From the NCBI GenBank assembly GCA_023249375.1, contig JAHFCT010000024.1, positions 1-50,286 of the forward strand: DNA of 50,286 bases, written 5' to 3'. The notes below the pieces were generated by a model that saw only the letters and a program-made list of their open reading frames with translations, did not search any database and had not been told where the DNA came from. The DNA is from Gemmatimonadota bacterium (GTDB lineage Bacteria > Gemmatimonadota > Gemmatimonadetes > Gemmatimonadales > Gemmatimonadaceae). The translations under genes and the position numbers were made by a program. Of this stretch, positions 1,543 through 30,405 are shown one piece after another; within the stretch, counting starts at the first letter, position 1; the number at the start of each line of letters is the position of its first letter.

Positions 1543-2510
1543 TGGCAATCGAAGGCCCGCTGCGCGAACTCGGCATTCACGACGTCTTCCAGCTCCTCGA
1601 CCTGAGCCGGAAGACGGGCGTGCTGCGCGTCACGTCCGAGCTGCGGGACAACGAAGGCGTGGTGGCGTTCCACGCGGGGCGCATCGCGTACGCCTCCATT
1701 CGGAGCAATCCGCACCCGATCGGCGAGATGCTGCTGAAGGCGAACAAGATTGCCGAGAGCGATCTCACGTCGGCGCGCGCCCGGCAGACCGAGCACGGCG
1801 ACCGGCGCCGCATCGGCGAGATCCTCATCGAGATGGGCGCGGTGTCGGCGCGCGACGTCGAGCAGTACGTGCGCCGCCAAGCCGAGGCGGTGGTGTTCGA
1901 GCTCATGAGCTGGCGCGAAGGGAACTTCCGGTTCGAGGAGTCGAATCCGGAGGAGCTTCCCGAGAATCCGTCGGTCGCCGTCTCCACCGAGTCGGTGCTG
2001 ATGGAAGCGGCGCGGCGCATCGACGAGTGGTCGCGCATTGCCGACCGCGTGCCCAGCCTGGCGGCGATTCCCGATTTTGCCGACGTCTCCGATGGGCATC
2101 ACGGCGGCCAGCTGGACCTGCTGCCGAGCGAGTGGGAAGTGCTGACGATGATCGACGGCCAGCGCGACCTGCGGCGCATCGCACTCGAACTGGCGCGCAG
2201 CGACTTTGACGTGGCCAAGGTCGTCTACGGTCTGGTGAGCACCGGCGTGGTCTCGCTGCGCCAGCCCGACCGGCGCTCCAAGCCGGTGGAGATCAGCTCC
2301 GACGAGGACGCCGAGCGTCGGGCGGCGGCCCGTGCGCTCGTGTTACAGGGCCTCGCGTCGGCGCAGGGCGGGCGGCTGGACGACGCGGTGCGCCTCTGGA
2401 AGCAGTACCTCCTGCTGCATGCGGCGGACAGGGACGCGCCCGCGGTGCGTGATGGGCTCGCGGCGGCGGAGCGATTGGCAAAGTCGCTGGAGGTGCTGCG
2501 TGGCGAATGA
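1542..2510 (+). CDS. DUF4388 (PATAN-type) domain protein
   Basis: The 322-residue product opens with MAIEGPLRELGIHDVFQLL and continues GVLRV...VVAFHAGRIAYA, the pattern of DUF4388/PATAN domains, which occur in bacterial signalling proteins together with response regulators and MglA-like GTPases. The segment around residues 60-130 (IGEMLLKANKI, IGEILIEMGAVS) is the repeated ILxxxGxI helical element typical of this family. The C-terminal 60 residues look like a single TPR-like helical pair. ATG at 1542 overlaps the upstream stop by one base. It is a clear paralogue of the N-terminal half of the product at 6729-8351. No catalytic residues are seen; an adaptor role is inferred. Confidence 0.85.
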   Translation: MAIEGPLRELGIHDVFQLLDLSRKTGVLRVTSELRDNEGVVAFHAGRIAYASIRSNPHPIGEMLLKANKIAESDLTSARARQTEHGDRRRIGEILIEMGAVSARDVEQYVRRQAEAVVFELMSWREGNFRFEESNPEELPENPSVAVSTESVLMEAARRIDEWSRIADRVPSLAAIPDFADVSDGHHGGQLDLLPSEWEVLTMIDGQRDLRRIALELARSDFDVAKVVYGLVSTGVVSLRQPDRRSKPVEISSDEDAERRAAARALVLQGLASAQGGRLDDAVRLWKQYLLLHAADRDAPAVRDGLAAAERLAKSLEVLRGE

Positions 2511-3426
2511 CGATATCCGCGCGCTGAGCGAAGAACTCGCCGCCGATCCGACCAGCCTGGCCTTCATTCCGCTGGGCGAGGCGCTGCGGCGCCGCGGCGA
2601 TCTCGAAGTGGCGATGCGCGTGGCGATGCGCGGCGCCGAGCGGCATCCCATGCGACCAGACGCGCACGATTTGGTGGCGCGCGTCTCGGCCGACCGCGGC
2701 GAACTCGACCGCGCGATTTCCGAATGGGAGACGGTGCTGCAGCTCGCGCCTTCACACGGTGGCGCCCGCAAGGGACTTGGCTTCGTCTGCTTCCAGCTTG
2801 GGCGGCTGGAGGACGCGGCCGCGCATCTTGGCGCGGCGCTCGCGATTGATCCCGACGACGGCTCGCTCGCGGCGGCGCTGCAGACGGTGCGCCACGCCCT
2901 TGACCGACAGGCCGACGCGGATCGCGCCACCGTGGCGGTGCGTCGCGTGGCGGCGACCGGCGAGTCGGAATCGGCGCATCCGCCGCGCGGCGCGCAATAC
3001 ACCGAAGCGCTCGCCACGCGCCCGACGATTGCGCTGCCGAGTGATCTGCAGGATCCCGAGGCCGATGCCGGCGCGCTCTTCGACGATTTGCTCGAGGGGC
3101 AGCGGAGCGCGGCGATGCTGCTGGATGCCGATGGACTGGTGCTGGCGGGGCGCTATGTCGCGGTCGACGGCCGCGATCTCGCGGCCGACATCGGCGCGCA
3201 GCTCTCGGGGGTGAGTGACGAAGCCAGTCGCGCGATGCGCCATCTGGGCCTTGGGGCGTGGCGGCAGATTGTCTTTGAGACCGAAGCGGCGTCGGTGGCG
3301 ATGGCGCCGCTGCAGGAGGGCGTGGTCCTGGTGGCCGCCGCGCGGCCAATTCCTCTCGGCTTCGTGCGGCGCGTGCTCGAGCGCGCCGTGCACCGCGCGA
3401 TCGCGTGGCTCGAGGGCTCGCGATGA
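2500..3426 (+). CDS. TPR protein with C-terminal roadblock/LC7 domain
   Basis: GTG at 2500 was chosen because the preceding in-frame codons lie inside the upstream gene and do not resemble a protein, whereas residues from VANDDIRALSEELAADP onward are TPR-like. The product is 308 residues. Residues 1-130 hold about three TPR units. A disordered Arg/Ala-rich linker follows. Residues 185-305 form a roadblock/LC7 domain (SAAMLLDADGLVLAGRY followed by a second strand VAMAPLQEGVVLVAAA). Roadblock domains bind small GTPases; MglB, the GAP of MglA, is the bacterial prototype. It overlaps both neighbours (11 nt with the upstream gene, 4 nt downstream). It is probably a partner of the GTPase at 4272, by inference from linkage. 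Confidence 0.8.
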   Translation: MANDDIRALSEELAADPTSLAFIPLGEALRRRGDLEVAMRVAMRGAERHPMRPDAHDLVARVSADRGELDRAISEWETVLQLAPSHGGARKGLGFVCFQLGRLEDAAAHLGAALAIDPDDGSLAAALQTVRHALDRQADADRATVAVRRVAATGESESAHPPRGAQYTEALATRPTIALPSDLQDPEADAGALFDDLLEGQRSAAMLLDADGLVLAGRYVAVDGRDLAADIGAQLSGVSDEASRAMRHLGLGAWRQIVFETEAASVAMAPLQEGVVLVAAARPIPLGFVRRVLERAVHRAIAWLEGSR

Positions 3427-3770
3427 CCTCGCCGTTTGCGCACGTCACCGAGTCGCTCATCCGGCACCGCGGCGTGCTGGGGGCGATGGTCGTCGGTCTC
3501 GACGACGGCCTCATCGTGGACTCCACGCTGCAGATTGGCGTCAATGGCAACGCGTTTGCGGCGCTCACCGCGTCGCTCTATCGCAAGGCGCGGCGCTCGG
3601 CCAAGGCGGCGGGGTTTGGCGCGACGACGTTCCTGGAACTCGCCGCGGAGCAGGGGCGCGTGTGCACGGCCGGCGGGCGCGAGCTCGTGCTCGTAGTGGT
3701 GTGCGAGTCGCGGGTGAACGTCGGCTTGCTGCGCGTCGAGCTGCTGCGCGCGGCGGAGCAGCTGCCATGA
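3423..3770 (+). CDS. Small roadblock/LC7 protein
   Basis: This 115-residue protein is almost entirely one roadblock/LC7 domain: an N-terminal helix (TESLIRHRGVLGAMVVGLDDGLIVD), a central helix, and a C-terminal strand pair (RELVLVVVCESRVNVGLLRVEL). ATG at 3423 overlaps the preceding stop as ATGA, and its own stop overlaps the next start the same way, so translation is probably coupled through all three roadblock genes. The length fits MglB-like proteins, which act as homodimeric GAPs or scaffolds for MglA-type GTPases. Which of the three roadblock proteins is the GAP cannot be told from sequence. Confidence 0.8.
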   Translation: MTSPFAHVTESLIRHRGVLGAMVVGLDDGLIVDSTLQIGVNGNAFAALTASLYRKARRSAKAAGFGATTFLELAAEQGRVCTAGGRELVLVVVCESRVNVGLLRVELLRAAEQLP

Positions 3771-4240
3771 AGTTCTCCGTCGTTGCCGGCTGGGTGGAGA
3801 CGCCCCTCAAGCAGTTCGTGGATGATGCCCGCGTGGAGATTGCGGTGCTGATGCATCCGAGCGGCCAGGTGCTCGGGCAATACGGATTTGCGCGCTCGGT
3901 GGACGTGATGACCGCCTGCGCGCTGGCGTCGGCCATTCACGTGTCGTCGGCCGAACTCGGCCGGCAGCTGGAAGGCAAGCCCTTCGCCGCCTTGCACTAT
4001 ACGGGGCGGGACCGACAAATCTTCCTAGGGGCGATTCCGGCGCACGGACAGACGCTGGTGCTGCTGGCCGTGTTCGACGCCGAGAGTTCGCTGGGACTGG
4101 TGCAGTTGTTCCTGGAGGAGTTCAAAGCCCGGGTGGCGGCGGCCGCGCCGCCTCCCGTCGCCGATCAAGCCCCGGCGATGGCCGAGCATTTCGAGCGCGA
4201 CCTCAACCGCAACCTGGCCCAGCTGTTCGGGCGAGCGTAA
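3767..4240 (+). CDS. Roadblock/LC7-like protein with C-terminal helix
   Basis: The product is 157 residues. Residues 1-125 read as a roadblock-type fold (VEIAVLMHPSGQVLGQYGF, then QIFLGAIPAHGQTLVLLAVFD). After a Pro/Ala linker, the last 20 residues (AEHFERDLNRNLAQLFGRA) form a predicted amphipathic helix that could be a docking peptide. It starts with ATG in an ATGA overlap. It ends 31 bases before the MglA-like GTPase, so it is the roadblock protein closest to the GTPase gene, the position MglB occupies in characterised mglBA operons. That makes it the best MglB candidate, though the family match is looser than for its neighbour. Confidence 0.7.
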   Translation: MKFSVVAGWVETPLKQFVDDARVEIAVLMHPSGQVLGQYGFARSVDVMTACALASAIHVSSAELGRQLEGKPFAALHYTGRDRQIFLGAIPAHGQTLVLLAVFDAESSLGLVQLFLEEFKARVAAAAPPPVADQAPAMAEHFERDLNRNLAQLFGRA

Positions 4241-4271: not shown

Positions 4272-4874
4272 GTGAGCCTCGTCAACTACGCGACGCGCGA
4301 AATCACCTGCAAGATCGTCTACTACGGGCCAGGCCGGTCCGGAAAGACGACCAACTTGCATTACATTTACGGGCAGGTGCCTTCCGACCGCAAAGGGCAG
4401 ATGGTATCGCTCGCCACGCAGACCGACCGGACGCTGTTCTTCGATTTTCTGCCGCTCGACCTCGGGACGATTTCAGGCTTCACCACGCGCTTCCAGCTCT
4501 ACACCGTGCCGGGCCAGGTCTACTACGCGACGACGCGGCGGCTCGTGCTTCAAGGCGCCGACGGCGTGGTGTTTGTGGCCGACAGCCAGTCGCGGCAGCT
4601 CGACGAGAATATCGAAAGCCTGCAGGACCTGCACGCGAACCTGGCGGAACACGGCGTGGACGCGCGCGCCATTCCGCTGGTGCTGCAGTACAACAAGCGC
4701 GATTTGCCAACTGACCTGCTGCTTCCCGTGCCGACCCTCGAGGACCGTCTCAATTTCCGCGGCGTACCGTCGTTCGAAGCCGATGCACTGCACGGCACGG
4801 GCGTCTTTGAAACGCTGCGCGCGATTTCCGAACTCGTGCTGCGCCGGCTCAGCACGTCGGGAGGGTCGGCCTAG
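4272..4874 (+). CDS. mglA: MglA-family small Ras-like GTPase
   Basis: The 200-residue product matches MglA of gliding bacteria along its whole length. The P-loop is GPGRSGKT (residues 19-26). The family-specific block TDRTLFFDFLPLDLG follows (51-65). Switch II has PGQ at 80-82 instead of the eukaryotic DxxG, and the base-recognition motif is NKRD at 141-144. MglA-GTP marks the leading cell pole and sets the direction of gliding or type IV pilus movement in myxobacteria; related proteins are widespread with roadblock partners. The start is GTG at 4272, immediately before SLVNYATREI, which aligns with the known N-terminus. It abuts the following gene (stop at 4872-4874, GTG at 4875). The exact output in this organism is unknown. 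Confidence 0.93.
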   Translation: MSLVNYATREITCKIVYYGPGRSGKTTNLHYIYGQVPSDRKGQMVSLATQTDRTLFFDFLPLDLGTISGFTTRFQLYTVPGQVYYATTRRLVLQGADGVVFVADSQSRQLDENIESLQDLHANLAEHGVDARAIPLVLQYNKRDLPTDLLLPVPTLEDRLNFRGVPSFEADALHGTGVFETLRAISELVLRRLSTSGGSA

Positions 4875-6728
4875 GTGAACGCGCCGCGCGAGACGTTCGA
4901 GCGATTTGTCGTGGGGGCCAACAACCGCCTCGCCGCCGCCGCGGCGCGCGCGGTGGCGGAGTCGCCCGGCTCGACCTACAACCCCCTCTTCATCTATGGC
5001 GCGCACGGGCTGGGCAAGTCGCACTTGCTCACCTCGGTGGCGGAGCTGACCGCGTCGCTCTGGCCCGAGATCGAAGTGCGGCGCGAGGATGGCGCGCACT
5101 TTGTGGCCGGTCACGCCGCATCGCAGGCCGCCGGCGAGACCGAGGCGTTTCTCGCGTCGTACGAGCGCGCCGGCATGCTGCTGCTCGACGACGTGCACGC
5201 GCTCTCCGGTCATCCGCTGGCGCAGACGGATCTCGCGAGCGTCATTGACGCGCTGGTGGAGCACGGCCACCAGGTGGTGCTCGCGGCCGACCGCCTGCCG
5301 AACGCCATCGCGCAGGTGGATGAGGCGCTCGTCCAGACGCTGTCGCAGGGGCTGCTCGTGGACGTCTCGCCGCCGGACTACGAGACGCGCGCCGCCATCC
5401 TGCAGCGCATGGCATCGGAAGAGGGACTCGAACTCACCCCCGACGTCATTCAGGACCTCGCCGCGCGCGAGTATCGCGACATCGAGGAACTGCGCACCGC
5501 GCTCGCGCCGATCGCGGCCAAGCAGGCCAAGCCCGCGCCGCTGCTCGACGCCGGCGAGTTCGAGAGCTTCCTCAGCGACGTGCAGGTCGTGGTGCAGCAG
5601 CACGTGGAGTCGTGGCGCGGCCGATTGGCCGAAGCGATCGCGTTCTGGCAGAGCGAAGGATTCCGCACGGCGGTGCTGGAACGCGCGCTGGATTTGCCGC
5701 GCGCCCCCGACGTGGCGGGGCTGACCGCAACGTTTACGGCGGCTGTGGAGCACCTGCGCAATCTCGAAAGGCAGGCGCGGCAGGTGGATCCGTCGCTCGT
5801 GGGACACGCGGTCTTCCGTGATCCCGAGCGGATGATCGAAGCCGAAGATCTCGTGGAGCGGGCGCTCGCCGGCGAGTCGCCGGCGAAAGGGCCGAGCCCG
5901 GCCTTTGCGCGCAACACCTTCGAGGTGGGCGCATCCAACCAGCTCGCGGTGCACGCCGCGGACGCCGTGGTGGCAGAGCCGGCGCGGCGATACAACCCGC
6001 TGGTCTTCTACGGACCGAGCGGCGTGGGCAAGACGCACCTCGCCAACGCTATCGGCAATGCGCTCCTGGAGCGCGGCGGCGCCTCCGCGGTGGTGGCGTG
6101 CATCAACGCGCAGCAGCTCGTGGACGAACTCATCGCGGCGGTGCAGGACGGCAGCGTCGAGCGCTGGCGCGCGCGCTACCGCACGACGTCGGCCCTGATT
6201 GTCGACGACATTCAGTTCCTCGGCGGCAAGGAACGCACGCAGGAAGAGTTCTTCGGCATCTTCAACGCGCTCATCGACGGCGGACAGCAGGTGGTGCTCA
6301 CGAGCGACCGCGTCCCGGCCGACATCACCGATCTCGAGGCGCGGCTGCGCTCGCGGTTCGAGGGCGGGCTCGTCGTGCCCATTCAGTCGCCGGACCGCGA
6401 GCTGCGCGAGCGGCTCTTCGCGCGCTTCCTCGCCGATGCCAAGCATCCGGTCGGTGAAGACGTGCTCCACGCGCTGGGCGATCATCCCGTGCAGAGCGTG
6501 CGCGAGATTATCGGCGTCGTCACGCGCCTTGGCGCGGCCGCCGAGGTCGGCGGGCAGCCGCTGACGGTGGAGTTCGTGCGGTCGGAGCTTGGCGTGCAGG
6601 CGGCGACGCCGGTGCTCCCGCGAATTTCGCTGTCCATTCCCGCGGCTGGCGAACCGTTTCTTGATCGCGAGAAGGTCGTGTTCGACTGGCCCGATGCCGG
6701 CGCGCGGCTCATCGAGGAGCTCCGCTAA
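4875..6728 (+). CDS. Protein with two tandem DnaA-type AAA+ ATPase domains
   Basis: The 617-residue product holds two copies of the DnaA ATPase region. Copy 1 (residues 6-225) has box I (RETFERFVVGANNRLA), Walker A GAHGLGKSH (42-50) and Walker B LLLDDVH (102-108). Copy 2 (345-590) has NTFEVGASNQLA, Walker A GPSGVGKTH (380-388), Walker B LIVDDIQFLGGKERTQEEFF and the arginine-finger region LEARLRSRFEGGL (487-499). In copy 1 the equivalent of that region reads EALVQTLSQGL, so the finger arginine is missing. A helical linker (230-345) separates them. The DnaA domain IV, with its helix-turn-helix for origin binding, is absent from the C-terminus, so this is not the replication initiator. It lies between the GTPase and a PATAN-TPR gene with no gaps. 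Its role is unknown; it may be an Hda/DnaA-like oligomerising ATPase working in this signalling system. Confidence 0.85.
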   Translation: MNAPRETFERFVVGANNRLAAAAARAVAESPGSTYNPLFIYGAHGLGKSHLLTSVAELTASLWPEIEVRREDGAHFVAGHAASQAAGETEAFLASYERAGMLLLDDVHALSGHPLAQTDLASVIDALVEHGHQVVLAADRLPNAIAQVDEALVQTLSQGLLVDVSPPDYETRAAILQRMASEEGLELTPDVIQDLAAREYRDIEELRTALAPIAAKQAKPAPLLDAGEFESFLSDVQVVVQQHVESWRGRLAEAIAFWQSEGFRTAVLERALDLPRAPDVAGLTATFTAAVEHLRNLERQARQVDPSLVGHAVFRDPERMIEAEDLVERALAGESPAKGPSPAFARNTFEVGASNQLAVHAADAVVAEPARRYNPLVFYGPSGVGKTHLANAIGNALLERGGASAVVACINAQQLVDELIAAVQDGSVERWRARYRTTSALIVDDIQFLGGKERTQEEFFGIFNALIDGGQQVVLTSDRVPADITDLEARLRSRFEGGLVVPIQSPDRELRERLFARFLADAKHPVGEDVLHALGDHPVQSVREIIGVVTRLGAAAEVGGQPLTVEFVRSELGVQAATPVLPRISLSIPAAGEPFLDREKVVFDWPDAGARLIEELR

Positions 6729-8351
6729 ATGGCCATTCGCGGAAGCCTCAAGGAAGCGAGCCTCCCCGACGTGTTGCAGCTGCTCGCCATGGGCAAGAAG
6801 TCCGGCTGCCTGTCGGTAACGCACCGCAACAACTTCGGCTCGATCTACTTCGACAAAGGCAAGATTTCGTACGCGGCCATCGTGAACCGCCGCGACCGGC
6901 TGGGCGACATTCTCGTGAAGAGCGGCGTCATTTCGCAGGAGCAGCTCGACGAAGGCATCGCCGCGCAGGCGCATGAGCGCGACAAGCGGCTCGGCGAGAT
7001 CCTCGTCGACCGGCAGATCATCTCCCGCGAGGAGCTGCACCGGCAGATCCGACTGCAGATCGAGGAAGCGGTCTACTTCCTGTTCACGTGGACGCAGGGA
7101 ACGTTCAACTTCGAAGCCGAGATCCGGCCCGAGGAACAGGACTTCCTGGTCTCCATCAACCCCGAGTCGCTGCTGCTCGAGGGCGCGCGCCGCGTGGACG
7201 AATGGAGCCTGATCGAGAAGAAGATCCCGGGCTTCGACATCGTCTTCGAACTCGACCGCCGGCGCCTCGCCGACAGCGGTGTCGCGCTGACCGCGGAGCA
7301 GGAAACGGTGGTGCCGCTCATCGACGGGCGGCGCGACGTCGCGACGCTCGTTGATGAAACGGGCATGGTGGAGTTCGAGGTGGGCAAGGCGCTGTACGGC
7401 CTCGTCACCGCGGGCTTCCTGCATCGCGTGGGCAAGACAACCAAGGCCCCCGAGGTCGGCGCGCCCGATGCACGGGTGGAGGAACACCGCAACCTCGGCG
7501 TTGCCTTCTACAAGGCGGGCATGCTCGACGAGAGCGTGCGCGAGTTCCGCCGTGTCCTTGACCTGCGCCCGAGCGACGCGTCGGCGCGCTTCTACATGGG
7601 GCTCGTCCACGTGCGGCAGGGCAAGCACGCCGAGGCCGTCGGCGACTATCAGGAGATTGCGGCGTCTCGCATGGCGAAGCCCGCCGTGTTCCATAATCTC
7701 GCGCTCGCGCTCGAGCAGCTGGGGCAGTTCGACGACGCGCGGCGCGCGCTGGACGAAGCAGTGAATCGAGGCGGCGGATCGGATCCGCGCATCCTGCTGG
7801 CGCTCGGCGTGCTGCATCTGCGCGCTGGCGACGCCGCCGAGGCCGACGCCGTGCTGATGACGGCGCGACCGCTGTACGGACAGCGCGCGCCATCGCCGGT
7901 CTGGTTCCACTACGCCGCGATTGCCGCGGCCCTCGGCGGCCATCTCGACAAGTCCATCTCGCTGCTCACGGAAGGGACGCAAGCGCATCCGCACGCGGCG
8001 ACGCTGTACAACAATCTTGCGGTCGCGCTGGAAGCCAAGGGCCGGCACGACGAGGCGAAGGCGGCGGCAGACAAGGGGACGCACGAGGACGCCGGCCTGC
8101 CGCAGCTGCACAAGAACCTGGGCGACCTCGCGTACCGCGGCGGACAGCTCGACGACGCGCTCGAAGCCTATCAACGTGCGGTGAAGTTCAACGAGCACCT
8201 GGGCGCGGACGTGTGGCGCAAGCTCGGCAACATCCGGCTCAAGCGGAGCGAGCGCGACGAGGCGATTCGCTGCTGGGAAGCCGCGCTGGCCATCGATCCG
8301 GGCGATGCACGCCTGCAGGCGAACCTCGAGACTGTTCGGGCGCAGACGTGA
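6729..8351 (+). CDS. DUF4388 (PATAN-type) and TPR protein
   Basis: The product has 540 residues. Residues 1-230 form a DUF4388/PATAN region closely parallel to the gene at 1542: MAIRGSLKEASLPDVLQLL, then IYFDKGKISYA, two ILVxxxxIS helical elements, and LLEGARRVDEWSLIEKKIP. Residues 240-540 contain about eight TPR units (for example VAFYKAGMLDESVREFRRVL and GDLAYRGGQLDDALEAYQRA). ATG at 6729 directly follows the TAA of the DnaA-like gene, and the stop overlaps cheR by 4 bases. PATAN proteins are generally adaptors in two-component and gliding systems. The duplication of this domain on either side of the GTPase and ATPase genes suggests two alternative or paired scaffolds. Confidence 0.85.
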   Translation: MAIRGSLKEASLPDVLQLLAMGKKSGCLSVTHRNNFGSIYFDKGKISYAAIVNRRDRLGDILVKSGVISQEQLDEGIAAQAHERDKRLGEILVDRQIISREELHRQIRLQIEEAVYFLFTWTQGTFNFEAEIRPEEQDFLVSINPESLLLEGARRVDEWSLIEKKIPGFDIVFELDRRRLADSGVALTAEQETVVPLIDGRRDVATLVDETGMVEFEVGKALYGLVTAGFLHRVGKTTKAPEVGAPDARVEEHRNLGVAFYKAGMLDESVREFRRVLDLRPSDASARFYMGLVHVRQGKHAEAVGDYQEIAASRMAKPAVFHNLALALEQLGQFDDARRALDEAVNRGGGSDPRILLALGVLHLRAGDAAEADAVLMTARPLYGQRAPSPVWFHYAAIAAALGGHLDKSISLLTEGTQAHPHAATLYNNLAVALEAKGRHDEAKAAADKGTHEDAGLPQLHKNLGDLAYRGGQLDDALEAYQRAVKFNEHLGADVWRKLGNIRLKRSERDEAIRCWEAALAIDPGDARLQANLETVRAQT

Positions 8352-9169
8352 CAACCGCGGCCGCCGATGACGCGGCATTCTCGGCGCTGACGGCCAAGAT
8401 CGCCCGCGAGCGCGGATTTGGCGCGGGCAGCTATCGCGACGGCTGCCTGCGCCGCCGCATCGCGGTGCGCATGCGGGCGCGCGGCGTCCTGAACTTCGAA
8501 GCGTACAGCCACCTGCTTGACGCCGACCCCGCCGAATGGGAGCCGCTGCTCGACGCGCTGACCATCAACGTCACCAAGCTCTTCCGCGACCGCGATGTGT
8601 ACGAGGTGCTCGCGCGCGACGTCATCCCCGCGGTGTGGGCGATGCCGGCACCGCATCTGCGCGTCTGGAGCGCGGGGTGCGCCTCGGGCGAGGAGCCGTA
8701 TTCGCTTGGGGCGCTCTTCCATCGGCACGCCACGGCGCGGAGCCAGGCGGACCGCCTGTCGCACCTGCACGTGATTGGCAGCGACATCGACCGCGCTTCG
8801 CTCGACCGCGCGCGGCGCGCGTCGTATCCCGAGAGCGCGTTCGGCGACACGCCGGACGACCTGCGGCATCGCTACTTCACGCGCGAGATGCCGGCCAGCG
8901 TCCTTCCCGACGTGCGCGCACTCGTCACGTTTGAACGCCGTGACCTGCTCAAGGACGCGACGCCGCGCGGCCCGCTGCAGCTCATCACGTGCCGCAACGT
9001 GGTCATCTACTTTGACACGGCTTCGCAACAGGCGCTTTTTCAGCGCTTCCACGACGCGCTGCAGCCGGGCGGCTATCTGGTGCTCGGCAAGGTCGAGACG
9101 CTGCTCGGCGCGGCGCGCCGCCTGTTTGAGGCGGTGGATCATCGTCACCGCATCTTCCGCCGTCCGTGA
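8348..9169 (+). CDS. cheR: Chemotaxis protein methyltransferase CheR
   Basis: The 273-residue product is a complete CheR. The N-terminal all-helical domain ends with the family signature TINVTKLFRD (72-81). The SAM-binding glycine-rich motif is SAGCASGEEPYS (108-119), and LITCRNVVIYFD near 215-226 is the usual post-motif. CheR methylates glutamates of chemoreceptors using S-adenosylmethionine, setting adaptation. The chosen start is GTG at 8348 in a GTGA overlap with the upstream stop, because upstream in-frame sequence is shadow coding. Its presence implies receptors (MCPs) elsewhere, since none is in the window. There is no fused TPR at the C-terminus, unlike some gliding-system CheRs. Confidence 0.96.
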   Translation: MTTAAADDAAFSALTAKIARERGFGAGSYRDGCLRRRIAVRMRARGVLNFEAYSHLLDADPAEWEPLLDALTINVTKLFRDRDVYEVLARDVIPAVWAMPAPHLRVWSAGCASGEEPYSLGALFHRHATARSQADRLSHLHVIGSDIDRASLDRARRASYPESAFGDTPDDLRHRYFTREMPASVLPDVRALVTFERRDLLKDATPRGPLQLITCRNVVIYFDTASQQALFQRFHDALQPGGYLVLGKVETLLGAARRLFEAVDHRHRIFRRP

Positions 9170-9648
9170 CGGAGCATCGCGTGAAGATCGCCGAGTACGC
9201 CGTCGCGGCCGCTCCCGCCCTGCTCGTCACCATCGGGCTGGGGAGCTGCGTCGCCATCGTGCTGCACGACGCCAAGACGCGCGTCGGCGCGCTGGCGCAC
9301 GTGCTGCTGCCGGCGCCGACGGCCACGCTGGGCGCGGCGGATCAGCCGGGCCGCTTTCCGTCGTCGGCGGTGCCGCGTATGCTCGACGAGATGCGCGCGC
9401 TCGGTTCGAGCGGCACCGTCACCGCGCGGCTCGTCGGCGGGGCCAGCCTGTTTGGCCCGCTGCTCACCACGGATGGCGCGAGCGTGGGCACGCGCAACAT
9501 CGCGGCGGCCCGCGCGGCGCTCGCCGAGGCCAAGGTGCGGGTGATCGGCGAAGTGGTCGGTGGCAACGCCGGGCGTTCCGTGTTCTTCGAAGTCGCGTCG
9601 GGCCGCGTCGACGTGCGTTCCATGCGGGAGGGCGACCGTGTCCTCTAG
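9166..9648 (+). CDS. cheD: Chemoreceptor glutamine deamidase CheD
   Basis: The 160-residue product has the CheD catalytic cysteine in GLGSCVAIVLHD (Cys28), the catalytic histidine in GALAHVLLP (His45), and the late motif EVVGGNAGRSVFFEVASG. CheD deamidates specific glutamines of chemoreceptors to glutamates, creating methylation sites for CheR, and in several phyla also interacts with the phosphatase CheC. GTG at 9166 lies in a GTGA overlap with cheR; a second GTG five codons later is also possible. The 3' end overlaps cheB by 11 bases. No CheC is visible in the window. Confidence 0.93.
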   Translation: MTEHRVKIAEYAVAAAPALLVTIGLGSCVAIVLHDAKTRVGALAHVLLPAPTATLGAADQPGRFPSSAVPRMLDEMRALGSSGTVTARLVGGASLFGPLLTTDGASVGTRNIAAARAALAEAKVRVIGEVVGGNAGRSVFFEVASGRVDVRSMREGDRVL

Positions 9649-10714
9649 GCGCTGGTCGGTGCTCGTCGTGGATGACAGCGCGTTCATGCGTACCGTCATC
9701 AGCGACCTCGTGGCGTCGTTCCCCGAGTTCACGGTGATCGGCACGGCGCGTGACGGACAGGACGCGCTGGAGAAGACGCACGCCCTCGATCCCGACGTCG
9801 TCACGCTGGACATCGAGATGCCGGTGCTCGACGGCCTCGCCGCGCTCGGCTACATCATGAGCGAAGTGCCGCGTCCCGTCGTGATGCTGAGCGCCGTCGA
9901 CGCGCGCGGCGACGTGGACCTGACCATTCGCGCCCTTGAGCTCGGGGCGGTGGAGTTCGTGCGCAAACCGCGCGACTCACGCGTTGACTTGGGGCGTGTG
10001 AAGGAACGGCTGCACGAGGCGCTGCAGGCCGCCGTGTCGGTGAACCTGCGCGCGGCGCCCGTGCTGGCGCGGCCGCGGCGTGCCATCGCGCGCAGCGTGC
10101 CAGCGGTGGAGCAGGCGCACGTGGTGGTGGCGATTGCCGCGAGCACGGGCGGCCCGCGCGCGCTCGCGGAAGTGCTGCCGGCGCTATCCTCGACGCTCGG
10201 CGCGGCGGTGATCGTGGTGCAGCACATGCCGCCGGGCTTCACCGAAGGACTCGCGCGGCGTCTCGACGAACTCTGTGCGCTTCCGGTCACGGAAATCACC
10301 GACGGCGAACCGCTGCGCGCCAACCACATCTATCTCGCGCCGGGCGGTCGGCACGCGCGTCTCGTTGCAGTGGCGGGTGTGCCCGTGTTCGTGCTCGACG
10401 AAGCGCCCACGATGCACGGCGTTCGTCCCGCGGCCGATCCGTTGTTTGGCAGCGTGGCGGAGATGGCGGGAGCGCACGCGGTGGGCGTCGTGCTCACCGG
10501 CATGGGCCGCGACGGCGCCGCCGGGCTGGCCGCGATTCGCGCCGCGGGCGGGCGCGTGATCGTGCAGAATCAGGCGACGTCCACCATCTACGGCATGCCG
10601 CGCGAAGCCAAGGCCGCGTGCGGCATCGTTGACGCCGAGGTGGCGCTGGGCGACGTCGCCGCGGCGGTGCACGCGCAGGTGGCGCAGGTGCTCGCGCGGT
10701 CGGCGAGCACGTGA
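9638..10714 (+). CDS. cheB: Protein-glutamate methylesterase CheB
   Basis: The 358-residue product has a receiver domain at residues 6-125 with the phosphoacceptor Asp58 in LDIEMPVLDG, followed by a linker and the methylesterase domain. The catalytic triad is visible as Ser169 (AASTGGP), His196 (VVQHMPPGF) and Asp292 (GMGRDGAAG). CheB removes methyl groups from chemoreceptors when phosphorylated, normally by CheA. GTG at 9638 is the only start that leaves the receiver domain intact without a long unrelated extension; it overlaps cheD by 11 bases. An intact phosphoacceptor implies a histidine kinase partner, which must be encoded outside the window. Confidence 0.96.
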   Translation: MSSRRWSVLVVDDSAFMRTVISDLVASFPEFTVIGTARDGQDALEKTHALDPDVVTLDIEMPVLDGLAALGYIMSEVPRPVVMLSAVDARGDVDLTIRALELGAVEFVRKPRDSRVDLGRVKERLHEALQAAVSVNLRAAPVLARPRRAIARSVPAVEQAHVVVAIAASTGGPRALAEVLPALSSTLGAAVIVVQHMPPGFTEGLARRLDELCALPVTEITDGEPLRANHIYLAPGGRHARLVAVAGVPVFVLDEAPTMHGVRPAADPLFGSVAEMAGAHAVGVVLTGMGRDGAAGLAAIRAAGGRVIVQNQATSTIYGMPREAKAACGIVDAEVALGDVAAAVHAQVAQVLARSAST

Positions 10715-11145
10715 GCGCGCATCTGCTGGCCCGCGTCGGTCACGAACGCTTTGCGTTTGCGCTGGGCCGCGTCATCGAGGCGCTCGATGCGCCGACGCTG
10801 CACCATCCGCCGCGGCGTCCCGACGGCATGCTGGGCACGATGCGGCATCGCGGGCAGACGCTGCCCGTGTGGGACGGCGCGCGCGCGTTCGGCATCTCGC
10901 GCGACGCCGGCGAGGGTACGGCGCTCGTGATCGGCGACGATGAACGGCACCTCGCGCTGCTCGTGGACGATGCGGTGGACATCGTGGAGATCGCCAGCGA
11001 CGCGCTGCGAACGGCGCCGGCCGGCACCGATGGCGAAGGGATGCTCGCGGGCGTCGTGCGCGACGACGACGGACTCGTGGGCGTGGTGCGCGTGGACGTG
11101 TTGGTGTCGCGCCTCGTGTCGTGGGGCGCACGGAGACCGGAATGA
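10711..11145 (+). CDS. Divergent CheW-like coupling protein
   Basis: The 144-residue product follows the CheW fold pattern: an N-terminal strand pair (LLARVGHERFAFALGRVIEAL), MLGTMRHRGQTLPVWD in place of the usual GVInLRGxVIPViD, then LALLVDDAVDIVEI. It is a clear but divergent family member; the signature glycine and arginine spacing around the first beta-barrel is changed. CheW links receptors to CheA. It starts with GTG in a GTGA overlap with cheB and ends in an ATGA overlap with a more canonical cheW. The two adjacent CheW-like proteins could serve different receptor or kinase partners, or this one could act as an adaptor of another kind. Confidence 0.78.
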   Translation: MSAHLLARVGHERFAFALGRVIEALDAPTLHHPPRRPDGMLGTMRHRGQTLPVWDGARAFGISRDAGEGTALVIGDDERHLALLVDDAVDIVEIASDALRTAPAGTDGEGMLAGVVRDDDGLVGVVRVDVLVSRLVSWGARRPE

Positions 11146-11615
11146 GCACGGGTAAGACGCAGCTTGTCACGTTCCGCCTCGGCGAGGATCAGTTCGCGGC
11201 GGACATCTTCTCGGTGGAGCGCGTGCTGCGCTACACCAAACCGCGGCCCGTGCCCGACCTCCCACCGTGGATGGAAGGCGTGCTCGACTACTCCGGTCGC
11301 GTGGTTCCGGTGATTGATCTGCGCGCGCGGTTTGGCGCAGCGGGCGAGCGGCCGGCGGGCGCGCGCATCGTGGTGTGCGAGGCCGACGGCGACTGGATTG
11401 CAATGACTGTGGATTCGGTGCAGGAAGTCACCGCCATCGACGCCTCGCAAGTTGAGCCGCCGCCGCCCGTCTTTCGCGGGCTGACCAAGGAGTACCTGAC
11501 GGGGATGGTGCGCCGCGCGGGCGGCGTGCTCGTCGTGCTGAACGTCCGCCACCTGCTGACGTCGCAGGAGCGGCTGCAACTGGAGCGCGCCGTGGGCGCT
11601 GAGGTGGTGCCATGA
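11142..11615 (+). CDS. cheW: Chemotaxis coupling protein CheW
   Basis: The 157-residue product is a canonical CheW. It has QLVTFRLGEDQFAADIFSVERVL at the N-terminus, PPWMEGVLDYSGRVVPVIDLRARFG in the middle, and WIAMTVDSVQEVTAID plus GVLVVLNVRHLL later. CheW bridges chemoreceptor tips to the CheA P5 domain within signalling arrays at the membrane. ATG at 11142 (ATGA) was chosen over an in-frame start 21 bases upstream that lies inside the preceding gene. It is translationally coupled on both sides. The canonical sequence suggests that a true CheA is encoded elsewhere, most simply upstream of base 1. Confidence 0.93.
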   Translation: MSTGKTQLVTFRLGEDQFAADIFSVERVLRYTKPRPVPDLPPWMEGVLDYSGRVVPVIDLRARFGAAGERPAGARIVVCEADGDWIAMTVDSVQEVTAIDASQVEPPPPVFRGLTKEYLTGMVRRAGGVLVVLNVRHLLTSQERLQLERAVGAEVVP

Positions 11616-15978: not shown

Positions 15979-16911
15979 GTGACTTCGCGTTTCGACTCGC
16001 CCTACCACGCGCCGGTGCTCGTCGAGGAAATCCTCGGCCTGTTTGGCGGTGCGCGCCGTGCGCTCGACTGCACGCTGGGTGGTGGCGGACATAGCGCGGC
16101 ACTGCTCGACGCCGGCATGGACGTGACGGGCATCGACCGCGATCCGGCGGCGATCGCCGAGGCGTCGCACCGGCTTCGCGACGAGGCGGCCGCGGGGCGA
16201 TTCCGCACGCTGCGCGGCAATTACGCGGACGCCGATGCGCTGCTCCCGCCGGGAGAGACCTTCGATGCGATTCTGCTCGACCTCGGCGTCTCCTCGCACC
16301 AGATCGACGATGACGCGCGCGGGTTTTCGTTTCGGGAGGGAGCGCCGCTGGGCGGGGCGATGGATGCGAGCGCGGAAGCGGGGACGGCCGCCGACTTCCT
16401 CAACTTCGCCGAACTCGCCGAGCTGACGCGGGCGTTCAAGGAGTTTGGCGACGAGCCCAAGGGGGCAAGGCTGGCGCGCGAAGTGCTGCACCGCAGAGAG
16501 CACCGCCCGTTTGCCATCAGCGACGATTTCGTCGGCGCCATTCGCGCCGTGCTCGGGCCGCGCAGCGGGCCGGGCGATTTCGCGCGGCTCTTTCAGGCGG
16601 TCCGCATCGCGGTCAACGACGAGCTGGACGGACTCGCGCGCGCGCTGCCGGCGCTGCGTGACCGACTGGCCCCGCAGGGCGTCCTCGCAGTGATAGCGTA
16701 TCACTCGGGAGAAGACCGGCTGGCGAAGCTGGCCTTTCGCGAGTGGGCGTCGTCGTGTGTCTGTCCGCCCAAGCAACCCATGTGCACCTGCCGAGGCCGT
16801 CCGCTGGGCACCCTGCTGACCCGCAAACCGATCACCGCGGCCGACGCCGAGGTGGCGCGCAACGTGCGCGCCCGCAGCGCGCATCTGCGCGCGTTCCGGC
16901 GCGGGGACTGA
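15979..16911 (+). CDS. rsmH: 16S rRNA (cytosine1402-N4)-methyltransferase RsmH
   Basis: The 310-residue product matches RsmH (MraW) along its length: YHAPVLVEEIL at the N-terminus, SAM-binding DCTLGGGGHSAALL, then LLDLGVSSHQIDDDARGFSF, and the C-terminal VIAYHSGEDRLAK and CPPKQPMCTC. It methylates C1402 of 16S rRNA at N4 in the ribosomal P site. It is the first gene of the dcw cluster here; the usual upstream mraZ is missing. The start is GTG at 15979 just before TSRFDSPYHAPV, and no convincing Shine-Dalgarno is seen. Transcription probably starts inside or next to the repeat element immediately upstream. Confidence 0.96.
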   Translation: MTSRFDSPYHAPVLVEEILGLFGGARRALDCTLGGGGHSAALLDAGMDVTGIDRDPAAIAEASHRLRDEAAAGRFRTLRGNYADADALLPPGETFDAILLDLGVSSHQIDDDARGFSFREGAPLGGAMDASAEAGTAADFLNFAELAELTRAFKEFGDEPKGARLAREVLHRREHRPFAISDDFVGAIRAVLGPRSGPGDFARLFQAVRIAVNDELDGLARALPALRDRLAPQGVLAVIAYHSGEDRLAKLAFREWASSCVCPPKQPMCTCRGRPLGTLLTRKPITAADAEVARNVRARSAHLRAFRRGD

Positions 16912-16912
16912 G

Positions 16913-17200
16913 ATGCGGGGCCGCAGCGTGGTCTTCCTGTCGCTCATCGGCTTCGTGGTGCTCGCCACGGGCGTGATCTGGCGGCGCAGCCTGGGCGTGA
17001 CGCGGGCGCGCGCCATCGAGACGCTCGAGACGCGCCGCGCCGCGCTGGCCGCACAGCGCGCCAAGCTCGACGGTGAGATCCGCACCGCGGTGAGCATGGA
17101 CAAGCTGGGGCGCGTGGCCGAGGAGCACCTGCACATGCGCGTCCCGGGCGACTCGCTCGTCGTCACGCTGACGCGCTCGCCCCGTGTCGCTGTTCGCTGA
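16913..17200 (+). CDS. ftsL: Cell division protein FtsL-like
   Basis: The 95-residue product has a short basic N-terminus, one membrane span (VVFLSLIGFVVLATGVIW, residues 6-23) and a helical region with coiled-coil character (TRARAIETLETRRAALAAQRAKLDGEI, 30-56), ending in a short strand region. This topology, length and position between rsmH and ftsI are those of FtsL, which joins FtsB and FtsQ in the divisome and activates FtsWI. FtsL is poorly conserved, so position carries much of the weight. ATG at 16913 follows the rsmH stop by one base; the 3' end overlaps ftsI by 17 bases. Confidence 0.85.
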   Translation: MRGRSVVFLSLIGFVVLATGVIWRRSLGVTRARAIETLETRRAALAAQRAKLDGEIRTAVSMDKLGRVAEEHLHMRVPGDSLVVTLTRSPRVAVR

Positions 17201-19148
17201 CCGCCCGCGGCTAATCCACGTGTCGCTGGCGCTCTTTGCGCTGGCGGTGGTGGGCCGCGCGGCCAAGGTGCAGCTGCTCGACGCGGATCACTGGCGCGAA
17301 CGCGCGCGCTATCAGCAGGTGGCGGCGTCGCCGCTGCCGGCGCCGCGCGGCGCGGTGCGCGATGCGAGCGGCGACGTGCTGGTGGAGAGCCGCGAGATGG
17401 TGCGGCTGCGCGTGGCGCCGCGCGAGGTGAAGAACGTTCCGCAGCTGGGCAAGCTGCTGTCGCGCGCCGGAGTTGCGGCCGAGTGGGTGTCGCGGGTGAG
17501 CGACACGACCAACAAATGGGTGGAGATTCCCGGACTCTTCCTGCCGACCGATGTGGCGCTGATCACGGCCACGCGCGGTGTGCATCCGGAGCCCGTGCTG
17601 AATCGGGTGGCGCCGCCGTCCGAGGGACTGCGCCGCATCATCGGCCGCACGGCCGACGGCGGCGCGCCGGTGGACGGCGTGGAACTCGCGCTCGATGCGC
17701 TGCTGCGTGGCGAAGCGGGGCACGAGGCGCTGCTGCGCGACAGCAAGGGCCGGCTCTTTGCGTCGCCGTCCGTGGATGGCGCCGCCGCGCGGCCCGGACA
17801 CACGGTCACGCTGACCATCAACGCGGGGCTGCAGGACATCGCGGAGCGTTCGCTGGGTGATGCGGTGACGCGGCTCGGTGCGAAAGGCGGCGACATCGTG
17901 ATTCTCGATGCGCAGTCGGGCGAGATCCGCGCGCTGGCGAGCAAGCGCGCCGACCCGCGTTCGACGGCGGCGACGGCGCTCACCGAGGCCTATGAGCCGG
18001 GTTCGACGCTCAAGCCGTTTACGGCGGCGTGGCTGCTCGATCATCACCGCGCGCGCCCCGACGAAGTGATGAACACGTACGGCGGCCGCTGGCTGTACAA
18101 CGGGCGCCTGATCGAAGACGACCACAAGGCCGGCTCGTACACGCTGGCGGACGTCATCCGCTATTCGAGCAACATCGGCATCATCCAGTTTGCGCAGCGC
18201 ATGACCGCGCGCGAACAGTTCGAGCTGATGCGCGACGTTGGCTTTGGCACGCCGACGGGGACCACGTATCCGTCGGAATCGCAGGGTCGGCTGGCGCCGC
18301 CCGCGCAGTGGTCGCAGCAGACGGCGGCGTCGGTGGCGATGGGCTACGAGATCATGGTGACGCCACTGCAGCTGGCGACGGCATACGCCGCCATCGCCAA
18401 CGGCGGAGAACTGCTGCAGCCCTCGCTCGTCAAGGAACTGCGCTCGCCCGACGGCCGCGTGGTCTACACGCACGAGCGCCGCGTGGTGCGCCGCGTGATG
18501 ACGGCCGACGCGGCGCGGACGATGCGCGGCATGCTGAAGGGCGTGGTGGACGGTGGCACGGCGGCGGGCTCGTCGCTGGCCACGTTTGACGTCGCGGGCA
18601 AGACGGGCACCGCCAAGGTGGTGCGCAACCGGCATTACGTGCAGGGCGAATACACGGCGAGCTTCGTTGGCATGTTCCCCGCTGAGGCACCGCAGATCGT
18701 GATTCTCGTGAAGCTCGACAGCCCGACGAAAGAGAAGTTTGGCGGCAAGGCGGCCGCACCGGTGTCAAAGACGATTCTCGAGGCGGCCATTGCGGCGCGT
18801 GATGCGGCGCTCGACCGTCGCGGCTTGGCGAACACGCCGCAGCGCGTCGCGGCCGCCCCGCCGGCCGGCGAGCCGGTGCGCGACGCCGCGGAATCGCTGT
18901 TCGTGCGGGAAAGCAGCGGCAGCGTTCCGTACGAAGTGTCGCTCGGCCAGCCGGCGCGCTCGGCGCGTGTGGTGGCGGGCGCGCGTGCCGTCCCCTCGGT
19001 GCACGGGATGACTCGTCGTGCCGCGGCGCGCGAGCTGCACCGCGCCGGCTTCCGCGTGGCCTTCACGCACGGCGAGGGCGCGCAGTGGCCGGCGGCAGGC
19101 ACGATGGCGGCGTCGGGCAGCCGTGTGACCGTGGCGGTGTCGCCGTGA
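17184..19148 (+). CDS. ftsI: Septal peptidoglycan transpeptidase FtsI (PBP3) with PASTA domain
   Basis: The 654-residue product is a class B penicillin-binding protein. It has a membrane anchor at residues 10-26, a PBP dimerisation domain (55-190, LPAPRGAVRDASGDVLVES), and a transpeptidase domain with catalytic Ser274 in STLK, SSN at 328-330 and KTGT at 473-476. The last 50 residues (VPSVHGMTRRAAARELHRAGFRV) form one PASTA domain, which binds peptidoglycan or muropeptides. PASTA-bearing division PBPs (Spo VD/PBP2x type) are common outside Proteobacteria. It crosslinks septal wall together with FtsW. The start is GTG at 17184, overlapping ftsL by 17 bases. Confidence 0.95.
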   Translation: MSLFADRPRLIHVSLALFALAVVGRAAKVQLLDADHWRERARYQQVAASPLPAPRGAVRDASGDVLVESREMVRLRVAPREVKNVPQLGKLLSRAGVAAEWVSRVSDTTNKWVEIPGLFLPTDVALITATRGVHPEPVLNRVAPPSEGLRRIIGRTADGGAPVDGVELALDALLRGEAGHEALLRDSKGRLFASPSVDGAAARPGHTVTLTINAGLQDIAERSLGDAVTRLGAKGGDIVILDAQSGEIRALASKRADPRSTAATALTEAYEPGSTLKPFTAAWLLDHHRARPDEVMNTYGGRWLYNGRLIEDDHKAGSYTLADVIRYSSNIGIIQFAQRMTAREQFELMRDVGFGTPTGTTYPSESQGRLAPPAQWSQQTAASVAMGYEIMVTPLQLATAYAAIANGGELLQPSLVKELRSPDGRVVYTHERRVVRRVMTADAARTMRGMLKGVVDGGTAAGSSLATFDVAGKTGTAKVVRNRHYVQGEYTASFVGMFPAEAPQIVILVKLDSPTKEKFGGKAAAPVSKTILEAAIAARDAALDRRGLANTPQRVAAAPPAGEPVRDAAESLFVRESSGSVPYEVSLGQPARSARVVAGARAVPSVHGMTRRAAARELHRAGFRVAFTHGEGAQWPAAGTMAASGSRVTVAVSP

Positions 19149-20617
19149 GCCGCAGCGTGTCGGTGGCGGCCGTCGCGCAGGCACTCGAAGATGCGGGACT
19201 GCTCGCCGGACGCCGCGGCGCGCTGCCCGATCGCATCCTCGGCATCACCGATGACTCGCGCGCGATCACGCGCGGCGGCGCCTTTGTGGCGGTGCGAGGC
19301 ACACAGCGTGACGGACACGCGTTCTTGGGTGGAGCCGATGGCGCCGGGGCCGCGCTCGCAGTGGTCGAGGACGCTTCGGCCACGTCGCTCCCCGCGCTGA
19401 TCGTGCACGACGGACGTCGTGCTGCGGCGGTGGCCGCTGCCACGTACTACGCGGCGCCGGCCTCGTTTCTGCGGATGGCTGCCGTGACCGGAACCAACGG
19501 CAAGACGACGACCGTCGGCATGCTGCGCCATCTGCTCGACGCGCCAGGCGCGCGTGCGGCGAGCATCGGCACACTCGGCGTGCTCGTGGGAAGCGCGGGC
19601 GACCCGCTGCCGGGCGGCGGTGGGCTCACCACGCCGGGGCCCATCGAGCTGCAGCGCGTGCTGCGCGCGCTCGTTGACGCCGGCGTGCGCAACGTGGCGA
19701 TGGAGACATCGTCGCACGCGCTCGATCAGGGGCGGGTGGAGGGACTTCGCTTTGCCGCGGCGGTGTTCACCAATCTCACGCGCGATCATCTCGACTACCA
19801 CGGCACGTTCGAGGCCTACTTCTGGGCCAAGGCGATGCTCATCGGCTATCTCTTGCCGGATGGCACCGCCGTGTCGAATGCGGACGACACGGCGTGGGCG
19901 GAACTGCCGGATGCGCCGCGACGCCTGAGCTTCGGCGTGACGGCCGAGGGGGCCGACGTGCGCGCCGAGTCGGTCGTGTTCGCGCCGCGCGGGAGCCAGT
20001 GGACGCTGGTGCACCGCCATGTGCGCGCCGACGTCACGCTGCCGCTGATTGGCGATTTCAACGTGGCCAACGCTCTTGGCGCGGCGGCGGCGGCGATCGC
20101 AATGGGCCTTGATGTGCCAACCGTCGCGTCGCGGCTGAGCACCCTGCCGCAGGTGCCCGGCCGGCTCGAGATCCTCAGCGAGCACCCGACCGTGCTTCGC
20201 GACTACGCGCACACCCCTGACGCACTCGAGCGCGCGCTGATGGCGCTGCGTCCGTTCACGCCCGGGCGGCTGATCGTCCTCTTCGGCTGCGGCGGCGACC
20301 GCGACAAGGGCAAGCGCCCCATGATGGCGGACGCGGCGCATCGGCTGGCCGACGCCGTGGTAGTGACGAGCGACAATCCGCGCACCGAGGATCCCGAGCG
20401 CATCCTCGACGACATCTGCGCCGTGCTCCCCGCGGGGAGCTACGAGCGCATCGAAGACCGTCGCACGGCCATTGCCGCCGCCATCGCGATGGCCGATCCG
20501 GCGCGCGACGTCGTGCTGCTCGCCGGCAAGGGACACGAGACGTACCAGATTCGCGGGACGACCTCGTATCCGTTTGATGAAGCCGCCATCGTACGCGGCC
20601 TGCTCGGGGCGGAGTAG
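19145..20617 (+). CDS. murE: UDP-MurNAc-L-Ala-D-Glu:meso-DAP ligase MurE
   Basis: The 490-residue product has the three Mur ligase domains: N-terminal UDP-binding (ITDDSRAITRGGAFVAVRG), central ATPase with P-loop VTGTNGKTTT near residues 114-123 and TRDHLDYHG, and C-terminal domain with SDNPRTEDP. The DNPR motif is the mark of enzymes that add meso-diaminopimelate, so the wall should be of the DAP type. The reaction is cytoplasmic and ATP-dependent, making the tripeptide precursor. GTG at 19145 lies in a GTGA overlap with ftsI; longer in-frame extensions lie inside ftsI. Confidence 0.96.
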   Translation: MSRSVSVAAVAQALEDAGLLAGRRGALPDRILGITDDSRAITRGGAFVAVRGTQRDGHAFLGGADGAGAALAVVEDASATSLPALIVHDGRRAAAVAAATYYAAPASFLRMAAVTGTNGKTTTVGMLRHLLDAPGARAASIGTLGVLVGSAGDPLPGGGGLTTPGPIELQRVLRALVDAGVRNVAMETSSHALDQGRVEGLRFAAAVFTNLTRDHLDYHGTFEAYFWAKAMLIGYLLPDGTAVSNADDTAWAELPDAPRRLSFGVTAEGADVRAESVVFAPRGSQWTLVHRHVRADVTLPLIGDFNVANALGAAAAAIAMGLDVPTVASRLSTLPQVPGRLEILSEHPTVLRDYAHTPDALERALMALRPFTPGRLIVLFGCGGDRDKGKRPMMADAAHRLADAVVVTSDNPRTEDPERILDDICAVLPAGSYERIEDRRTAIAAAIAMADPARDVVLLAGKGHETYQIRGTTSYPFDEAAIVRGLLGAE

Positions 20618-20620
20618 ACG

Positions 20621-26790: not shown

Positions 26791-26827
26791 CTTCCGTTCG
26801 CGCCGCCGCTCACCCACCATTCAGCGC

Positions 26828-28204: not shown

Positions 28205-28306
28205 CGCGGTCGGCCGGCGCGGCGCATGGGCCACACCGGCGGCGAGGAGCGCAAGCGCGAGCCCCCTCATTTTCCGTTTCTCGGCGTCAGTCGTCTATTG
28301 GTTGTC

Positions 28307-29017
28307 ATGGACGGCACCACCCAGGCCCCTTCGAAGCTGCGCGTCTACGCGCGGCGCGCCCTGCTCATTGCCGGGGGGCTGGCCGTCGTCGTTGCCCCGT
28401 TTGCGCTCCGCGAGGGCGCGCGGCGCATGGCGTTCTTCCGTGCCCGAAAGATCGAGATCGACGGCGCGCGTTACATCGCCCCCGATCAGATCGTTTCGCG
28501 CATGAAGATCGACACCACGGCGTCCATCTGGGACGACGCGGATTCGTGGGAGCAGCGGATCGGCACGCATCCGCAGGTGCGCGACGTGCGCATCTCGCGG
28601 CGGCTGCCCGGCACGCTGGTGGTGCACATCACCGAGGTGCCGCCGGTCGCGCTGGTACCGACCGCCACGGGGCTCGCGCCGTACGACGCGTCGGGCCACG
28701 CGTTGCCGATCGATCCCACCGCCGTTGACCTCGACCTTCCCGTGGTCGCCGCTCGCGATGTCGCGGCGCTGCAGTTGCTGGGCGATCTGCGCAAGGAGAT
28801 GCCGCAGTTGTTCGCGCGCATCAGCGACGTGCGTCGGCTGCCGCGCGGTGATTTGGAGTTGCAGGTCGATTCACTGAACGTGCTCGGCGCCCGCGACCTT
28901 ACCGCGGCGCGCCTGCAAGACATCCTGCCGGTCGAACGCGACCTCGCGCGCCGTGGACGGCGCGCCGTCGAGCTCGACCTGCGTTACCGTGACCAGGTCA
29001 TCGCCAGACTCCCATGA
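28307..29017 (+). CDS. ftsQ: Cell division protein FtsQ/DivIB-like
   Basis: The 236-residue product has a basic cytosolic tail, one membrane span (ALLIAGGLAVVVAPFAL, near residues 17-33), then a POTRA-type domain (FRARKIEIDGARYIAPDQI ... WEQRIGTHPQVRDVRISRRLPGTLVVHITE) and a beta-rich FtsQ domain. FtsQ recruits FtsL and FtsB to the divisome. ATG at 28307 is preferred; an in-frame ATG at 28226 would add 27 polar residues with no similarity. The 102-base gap before it is the longest in this cluster apart from the one before ftsZ. It overlaps ftsA as ATGA. Confidence 0.9.
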   Translation: MDGTTQAPSKLRVYARRALLIAGGLAVVVAPFALREGARRMAFFRARKIEIDGARYIAPDQIVSRMKIDTTASIWDDADSWEQRIGTHPQVRDVRISRRLPGTLVVHITEVPPVALVPTATGLAPYDASGHALPIDPTAVDLDLPVVAARDVAALQLLGDLRKEMPQLFARISDVRRLPRGDLELQVDSLNVLGARDLTAARLQDILPVERDLARRGRRAVELDLRYRDQVIARLP

Positions 29018-30279: not shown

Positions 30280-30405
30280 ACGATCGAAGGTCCGCAAGAC
30301 GGCATGTGGCCGCGCGGATGCGCGCGCAACATCACAAATCTTACGGGGCGATCCACCGAGTGGATTCGCCTCGTTTGCCTTTTGCGCACATCGCTCGTCC
30401 ACTCA

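Follow-up and report, generated by a model that had tools for sequence, protein, structure and literature searches.

The window analysed here, a stretch of 50,286 nucleotides from a member of the Gemmatimonadota, encodes a protein with two DnaA-type AAA+ domains in one chain, for which we coin the name DnaA2. Its gene belongs to a conserved operon that also contains MglA, roadblock and PATAN genes. Most of what is known of DnaA-type AAA+ domains concerns the start of replication and its control. We propose, tentatively and with slightly less than even confidence, that DnaA2 is a DnaA-derived, non-replicative ATP switch of an MglA/roadblock/PATAN polarity or surface-motility module in Gemmatimonadota. 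The more specific idea that the initiator ATPase was duplicated into a one-chain ATP switch, whose AAA1 pocket is read by the AAA2 finger and which adds a nucleotide switch to that of a Ras-like GTPase in polarity control, is possible but doubtful. If the proposal is true, a class-wide DnaA-derived family in a Ras-GTPase operon would show that an initiator ATPase can take on a role in cell polarity, and its lineages would supply a ready-made series, with decay in one half or the other of a composite ATPase site.

DnaA2 and its operon

The operon genes identified in the window are, in order:

1542–2510, + strand: DUF4388 (PATAN) protein (Pfam, 2.3e-33)
2332–3426, + strand: TPR-roadblock protein (Pfam; the real start lies further inside the ORF)
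3405–3770, + strand: roadblock (Robl_LC7) protein (Pfam, 3.2e-7)
4272–4874, + strand: MglA, Ras-like GTPase (6.3e-75 to the MglA of PDB 5ymx, 1e-67 to 3t12)
4875–6728, + strand: DnaA2, tandem DnaA-type AAA+ protein (GTG start, 617 residues, two Bac_DnaA stretches)
6729–8351, + strand: PATAN (DUF4388)-TPR protein (Pfam; next gene in 74/75 loci)
8348–11615, + strand: CheR-CheD-CheB-CheW-CheW cassette (Pfam; optional, missing in several operons)

Within DnaA2 we distinguish:

4884–5525, + strand: AAA1 (residues 4–217), Walker A and B kept, finger and sensor-2 arginines lost (A151, T155, E204)
4998–5021, + strand: AAA1 Walker A, GAHGLGKS (K48; lysine in 67/67 aligned tandem AAA1 copies)
5319–5354, + strand: AAA1 box VII region, DEALVQTLSQGL (arginines absent in 9/9 genus members, present in nearly all other lineages)
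5550–5882, + strand: MID, helical (residues ~226–336), without a Pfam match at the curated cut-off (dN/dS 0.086)
5886–6599, + strand: AAA2 (residues 338–575), a complete DnaA-type ATPase in the window's genus
6012–6035, + strand: AAA2 Walker A, GPSGVGKT (K386)
6342–6359, + strand: AAA2 box VII, RLRSRF (R490, finger R494; finger in 66/68 tandem AAA2 copies)
6666–6725, + strand: C-terminal tail, consensus SREKxVWxWPDxxxRxIEExR (predicted disordered, conserved in f1–f3)

The sequence-only reading had described two DnaA ATPase regions in one chain and no domain IV. Both statements hold. In a Pfam profile search Bac_DnaA (PF00308) matches DnaA2 twice (2.8e-90, 301 bits overall), and both copies pass the curated cut-off of 23 (172.7 and 135.2 bits). 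Pfam found neither Bac_DnaA_C (domain IV), by which a replication initiator would be recognized, nor the N-terminal domain I of DnaA; AAA1 begins at residue 4. The genome holds only two Bac_DnaA genes, DnaA2 and a normal dnaA at G000:C73. The latter clusters with the DnaA of the phylum in our tree, thus DnaA2 is not the cell's dnaA. DnaA2 nevertheless scores 423.7 against the DnaA equivalog model of NCBIfam (TIGR00362, cut-off 343.9) through the sum of its two domains; automatic annotation may therefore mislabel it 'DnaA'.

Hda/HdaA, the regulatory inactivator of DnaA, is likewise a DnaA-type AAA+ protein without a DNA-binding domain. As an Hda-like regulator, DnaA2 would dock its AAA2 finger on DnaA-ATP, promote hydrolysis and so couple surface signalling to replication timing. 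That no separate Hda was seen in the genome (its Bac_DnaA matches being dnaA and DnaA2 only), that the AAA2 finger is kept even where AAA2 has lost its own ATP site, and that the operon adjoins the division and cell-wall (dcw) cluster would all fit. However, DnaA2 is tandem, falls below the cut-off of the Hda model TIGR03420 (168.8 versus 194.8), is missing from part of the class (see below) and has polarity genes as neighbours. A pattern search for the β-clamp-binding motif, which in an Hda-like protein would be expected at the N-terminus, gave no match anywhere in the window's DnaA2, and its matches in relatives sit within the AAA+ domains, nearly all of them in AAA2. We regard Hda-like regulation as unlikely.

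DnaA2 also matches IstB_IS21 above the Pfam cut-off (67.4 versus 24.1 bits), as might be expected of an IstB/DnaC-like AAA+ loader or remodeller that assembles or disassembles a complex of the operon partners, with MID binding the substrate. MID is indeed the most constrained part of the protein, but the match to DnaA is far stronger than that to IstB_IS21, and no helicase or transposase is among the identified operon genes. The tree places both copies beside DnaA; since IstB/DnaC were not included among its sequences, this placement is no test of a loader function, which we consider improbable.

The genes around DnaA2 are tightly packed. DnaA2 starts at the base after the end of mglA, and PATAN-TPR at the base after the end of DnaA2. 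A TPR gene also lies upstream, alongside the DUF4388, TPR-roadblock and roadblock genes. A conserved ORF (3767–4240) in the interval from the roadblock gene to mglA resembles roadblock proteins by eye and gave no match in a Pfam search. The locus had been described from its letters as a GTPase-chemosensory operon. The first half of this description stands, the GTPase being a true MglA; the second does not characterize the operon, as the chemotaxis genes are optional. Several related operons that keep the core lack the Che cassette or have it in reduced form (e.g. L060, L061, L066, L068, L069), and beside the cassette no CheA, CheY or receptor genes were identified in the window's operon. Past the cassette follow a TPR gene, a peptidase-MA-like gene, another TPR gene and, beginning with rsmH and running to ftsZ, the dcw cluster. 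This cluster (15979–31676, same strand as the operon) comprises rsmH, PBP, murE, murF, mraY, murD, ftsW, murC, ftsA and ftsZ, and several related loci whose fetched sequence extends that far also have rsmH downstream. The genome contains eight above-cut-off matches to T2SSE (PilB/PilT-type), which makes the presence of type IV pilus-type ATPases likely. Ten Hpt matches lie outside the operon.

The closest known counterpart of the operon is the MglA/MglB polarity module of Myxococcus and Thermus, with which the window shares a true MglA, roadblock proteins and TPR and PATAN partners. PATAN proteins close to MglA/MglB have been recorded before (PMC4316618). M. xanthus MglA exerts its effect on type IV pili via the TPR protein SgmX, and PATAN proteins are among the candidate SgmX partners (PMC11580455). 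What sets the Gemmatimonadota operon apart is the DnaA-type ATPase, which we did not find for those modules in the open-access papers searched; nor is the family described in the open-access literature that we searched on DnaA with MglA, roadblock or Gemmatimonadota, on DnaA paralogues and on PATAN with MglA.

Distribution and gene neighbourhood of the family

Family searches covered 60 relatives and then 297 genomes of Gemmatimonadota. The family, defined by MID, occurs in 175 of the 297 genomes and is spread through one class of the phylum, many members of which lack it. Its proteins come in several architectures. In f1–f3 the order is AAA1-MID-AAA2 followed by the tail; f4 and f5 have AAA1-MID-AAA2 without lid 2 and without the tail; f6, f9 and a few f1 genomes have AAA1-MID only, and a single AAA+ domain is also found in g17. 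At L176 (7766–8776) the DnaA2 slot holds a 337-residue ORF with MID present and no AAA+ domain detected by Pfam. Because the architecture recurs at the same locus in most relatives, a chance arrangement is excluded.

Among 75 fetched loci, PATAN-TPR lies directly downstream of DnaA2 in 74 and MglA directly upstream in 60, a neighbourhood that spans at least six family-level groups. The fixed partner gene of DnaA2 is thus PATAN-TPR, and adjacency to MglA is less constant: in f5 DnaA2 adjoins PATAN-TPR while MglA is encoded elsewhere in the genome, and in one genus DnaA2 is present with MglA not adjacent. That the setting is one of signalling rather than replication, as the sequence-only reading had supposed, is borne out by all 75 loci, which have MglA and/or PATAN-TPR as neighbours and no replication genes; a location mainly beside replication genes had been named in advance as counter-evidence. 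Counting MglA as close at E ≤ 1e-70, we found that 160 of the 297 genomes have both MID and close MglA, 15 have MID without it, 18 have close MglA without MID and 104 have neither (Fisher p 8e-44, although the genomes are related and so not independent). Genera g5 and g7 (L174, L175, L190, L191) keep MglA and PATAN-TPR with DnaA2 gone from between them, and DnaA2 is therefore dispensable for the module. In the window's order, most genomes with DnaA2 also encode another, more distant MglA paralogue.

Searches outside the phylum with AAA1 (0/149 genomes of the phylum of the Acidobacteria locus) and with MID (0/40 genomes around L095) gave no match. One MID match in 198 genomes around L085 was rejected, as it proved on reading to be a repetitive coiled-coil protein. 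In a broader contig search ordinary DnaA took up the matches listed, which leaves other phyla thinly sampled.

Motif conservation and the composite site

In the window's genus AAA2 retains the motifs claimed for the second copy from the letters, namely Walker A (K386), Walker B (D444/D445) and the arginine finger (R490/R494), as well as sensor 1 and the sensor-2 arginine R543. AAA1 has an intact Walker B (LLLDD, D105/D106) but carries A151, T155 and E204 at the positions of DnaA R281 (box VII), R285 (finger) and R334 (sensor 2), whose functional roles are set out in PMC5742627. The first copy had been called degenerate for want of its finger. The loss is real and extends to sensor 2, which had gone unnoted, but we reject degeneracy as a trait of the family (motif counts leave out L010 and L014, alignment rows on the opposite strand). 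It is specific to the window's genus, where 9/9 members have lost the equivalents of R281 and R285 along with the sensor-2 arginine, and 3/9 have a changed second Walker B aspartate. Elsewhere AAA1 is canonical: the other f1–f3 lineages keep the finger in 38/42 and the sensor-2 arginine in 40/42 proteins, and f4/f5 have a complete AAA1 in 16/16. Lacking finger and sensor 2, the AAA1 of the genus probably holds nucleotide with little turnover, AAA2 being the better-equipped ATPase.

AAA2 has decayed in other lineages. The remaining f1–f3 proteins keep its Walker A (42/43) and finger (41/43) with sensor 1 eroded. In f4/f5, 13/16 proteins lack the AAA2 Walker A lysine, most lack Walker B and the lid is gone, whereas both box VII arginines are kept in 16/16.

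Two uses of the tandem arrangement had been suggested beforehand: either ATP is bound by one copy and the second copy supplies the rest of the active site, or the pair seeds a filament. The comparison favours the first. The AAA1 pocket and the AAA2 finger are both intact in 64/66 tandem proteins, the AAA2 pocket and the AAA1 finger in 40/66; discordant proteins stand 25:1 for the former pair, a figure inflated by shared descent. On a quick tree the AAA1-pocket/AAA2-finger pair was lost twice and the reverse pair eight times, and the AAA1 pocket itself was lost 0 times. The 2 versus 8 loss events alone are suggestive, being neither significant nor conclusive. AAA1's own finger is kept in most lineages, f4/f5 included, although a purely AAA1-pocket/AAA2-finger model does not need it.

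An alternative is that DnaA2 is a head-to-tail polymer, a filament or cluster that scaffolds MglA and PATAN proteins at a pole. DnaA domain III self-assembles head-to-tail via ATP and Arg285 (PMC5742627), both copies of DnaA2 are predicted to have two helices between Walker A and Walker B, and both composite sites are intact in 39/66 proteins, as a polymer would require. The contact between molecules (AAA2 pocket with AAA1 finger) is repeatedly broken, however, both in the genus of the window and for most f4/f5 proteins, which weakens the filament, and some families have a single AAA+ domain. We judge a polymer to be rather unlikely.

Returning to the ATP switch, we envisage that the AAA2 arginine finger, in the same chain or in a partner chain, would detect ATP held by the AAA1 pocket; ATP would bring the two AAA+ domains together and hydrolysis would let them part. 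MID and the conserved tail, whose SREKxVWxWPD portion is a candidate docking motif, may relay this state to PATAN-TPR and, where present, to MglA and the roadblock proteins. The relayed state could then set where or when type IV pili act, a pilus link that we infer for the window's organism.

Selection, phylogeny and structure

Median dN/dS values within the genus (NG86) are 0.21 for AAA1, 0.086 for MID, 0.18 for AAA2 and 0.37 for the tail. AAA1, MID and AAA2 are under purifying selection, strongest on MID, and with a value of 0.21 AAA1 is not simply decaying. In the tree, AAA1 groups with the single copies (100/99), AAA2 forms a clade of its own (100/97) and DnaA stands apart as a third group; the branch of the AAA1 from the window's genus is long (1.13). 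The single-domain proteins of f9 are nested inside tandem ones, which indicates loss of AAA2 in f9. A derivation of the tandem form from a single-domain form is unsupported, as this nesting points the opposite way.

A further reading makes MID the functional part of the protein and the AAA+ copies mere scaffolds that hold nucleotide and disappear from one lineage after another. In f6, f9 and g17 MID is found with a single AAA+ domain and at L176 without a Pfam-detectable one, and the long branch of the genus AAA1 could be read in the same way. Yet every tandem protein retains the AAA1 Walker A lysine and Walker B aspartate, and dN/dS is ∼ 0.2; we find this reading very improbable.

The AlphaFold2 model of DnaA2 (pLDDT 86.5, pTM 0.47) contains two AAA+ domains, a helical MID and a disordered tail. 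Because the pTM is low, the model does not fix the placement of AAA1 relative to AAA2. A C-terminal DNA-binding fold, named in advance as evidence against a signalling role, was looked for in the model, which has the predicted disordered tail at this position. The best Foldseek matches are to DnaA domain III (E 3.9e-19, target TM 0.92, 37% identity). With DnaA domain III (PDB 8bv3, 8btg, 2z4r) DnaA2 has the AAA+ fold and motifs in common, including box VII and finger in AAA2. It differs from DnaA in its two copies per chain, the inserted MID, the lack of domains I and IV, its place in a signalling operon of a genome with a separate dnaA, and the separation of the AAA1 and AAA2 clades from DnaA. 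p97/Cdc48 also has two AAA+ domains per chain, but those of DnaA2 are DnaA-type and the full chains superpose poorly (Foldseek TM ∼ 0.3, rmsd near 19).

Folded alone, MID gives a pLDDT of 86.8 and a pTM of 0.70. The best Pfam match of the window's MID (E 0.012) is under the cut-off. ABC_tran_CTD, the commonest Pfam match (14/55 members, best 1.5e-4), was rejected because it looks like helical-hairpin similarity. A search of PDB sequences gave nothing convincing, Foldseek returned no match under E 2.5 and VIA gave Z ≤ 4.4, low for a helical bundle. The predicted MID thus appears to be without a convincing structural match, which is not proof of a new fold.

On the minus strand a frame of 1301 residues (4473–8378) spans mglA, DnaA2 and PATAN-TPR, and in two relatives the antisense strand over DnaA2 is likewise stop-free. 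This frame is probably a stop-free by-product of high GC.
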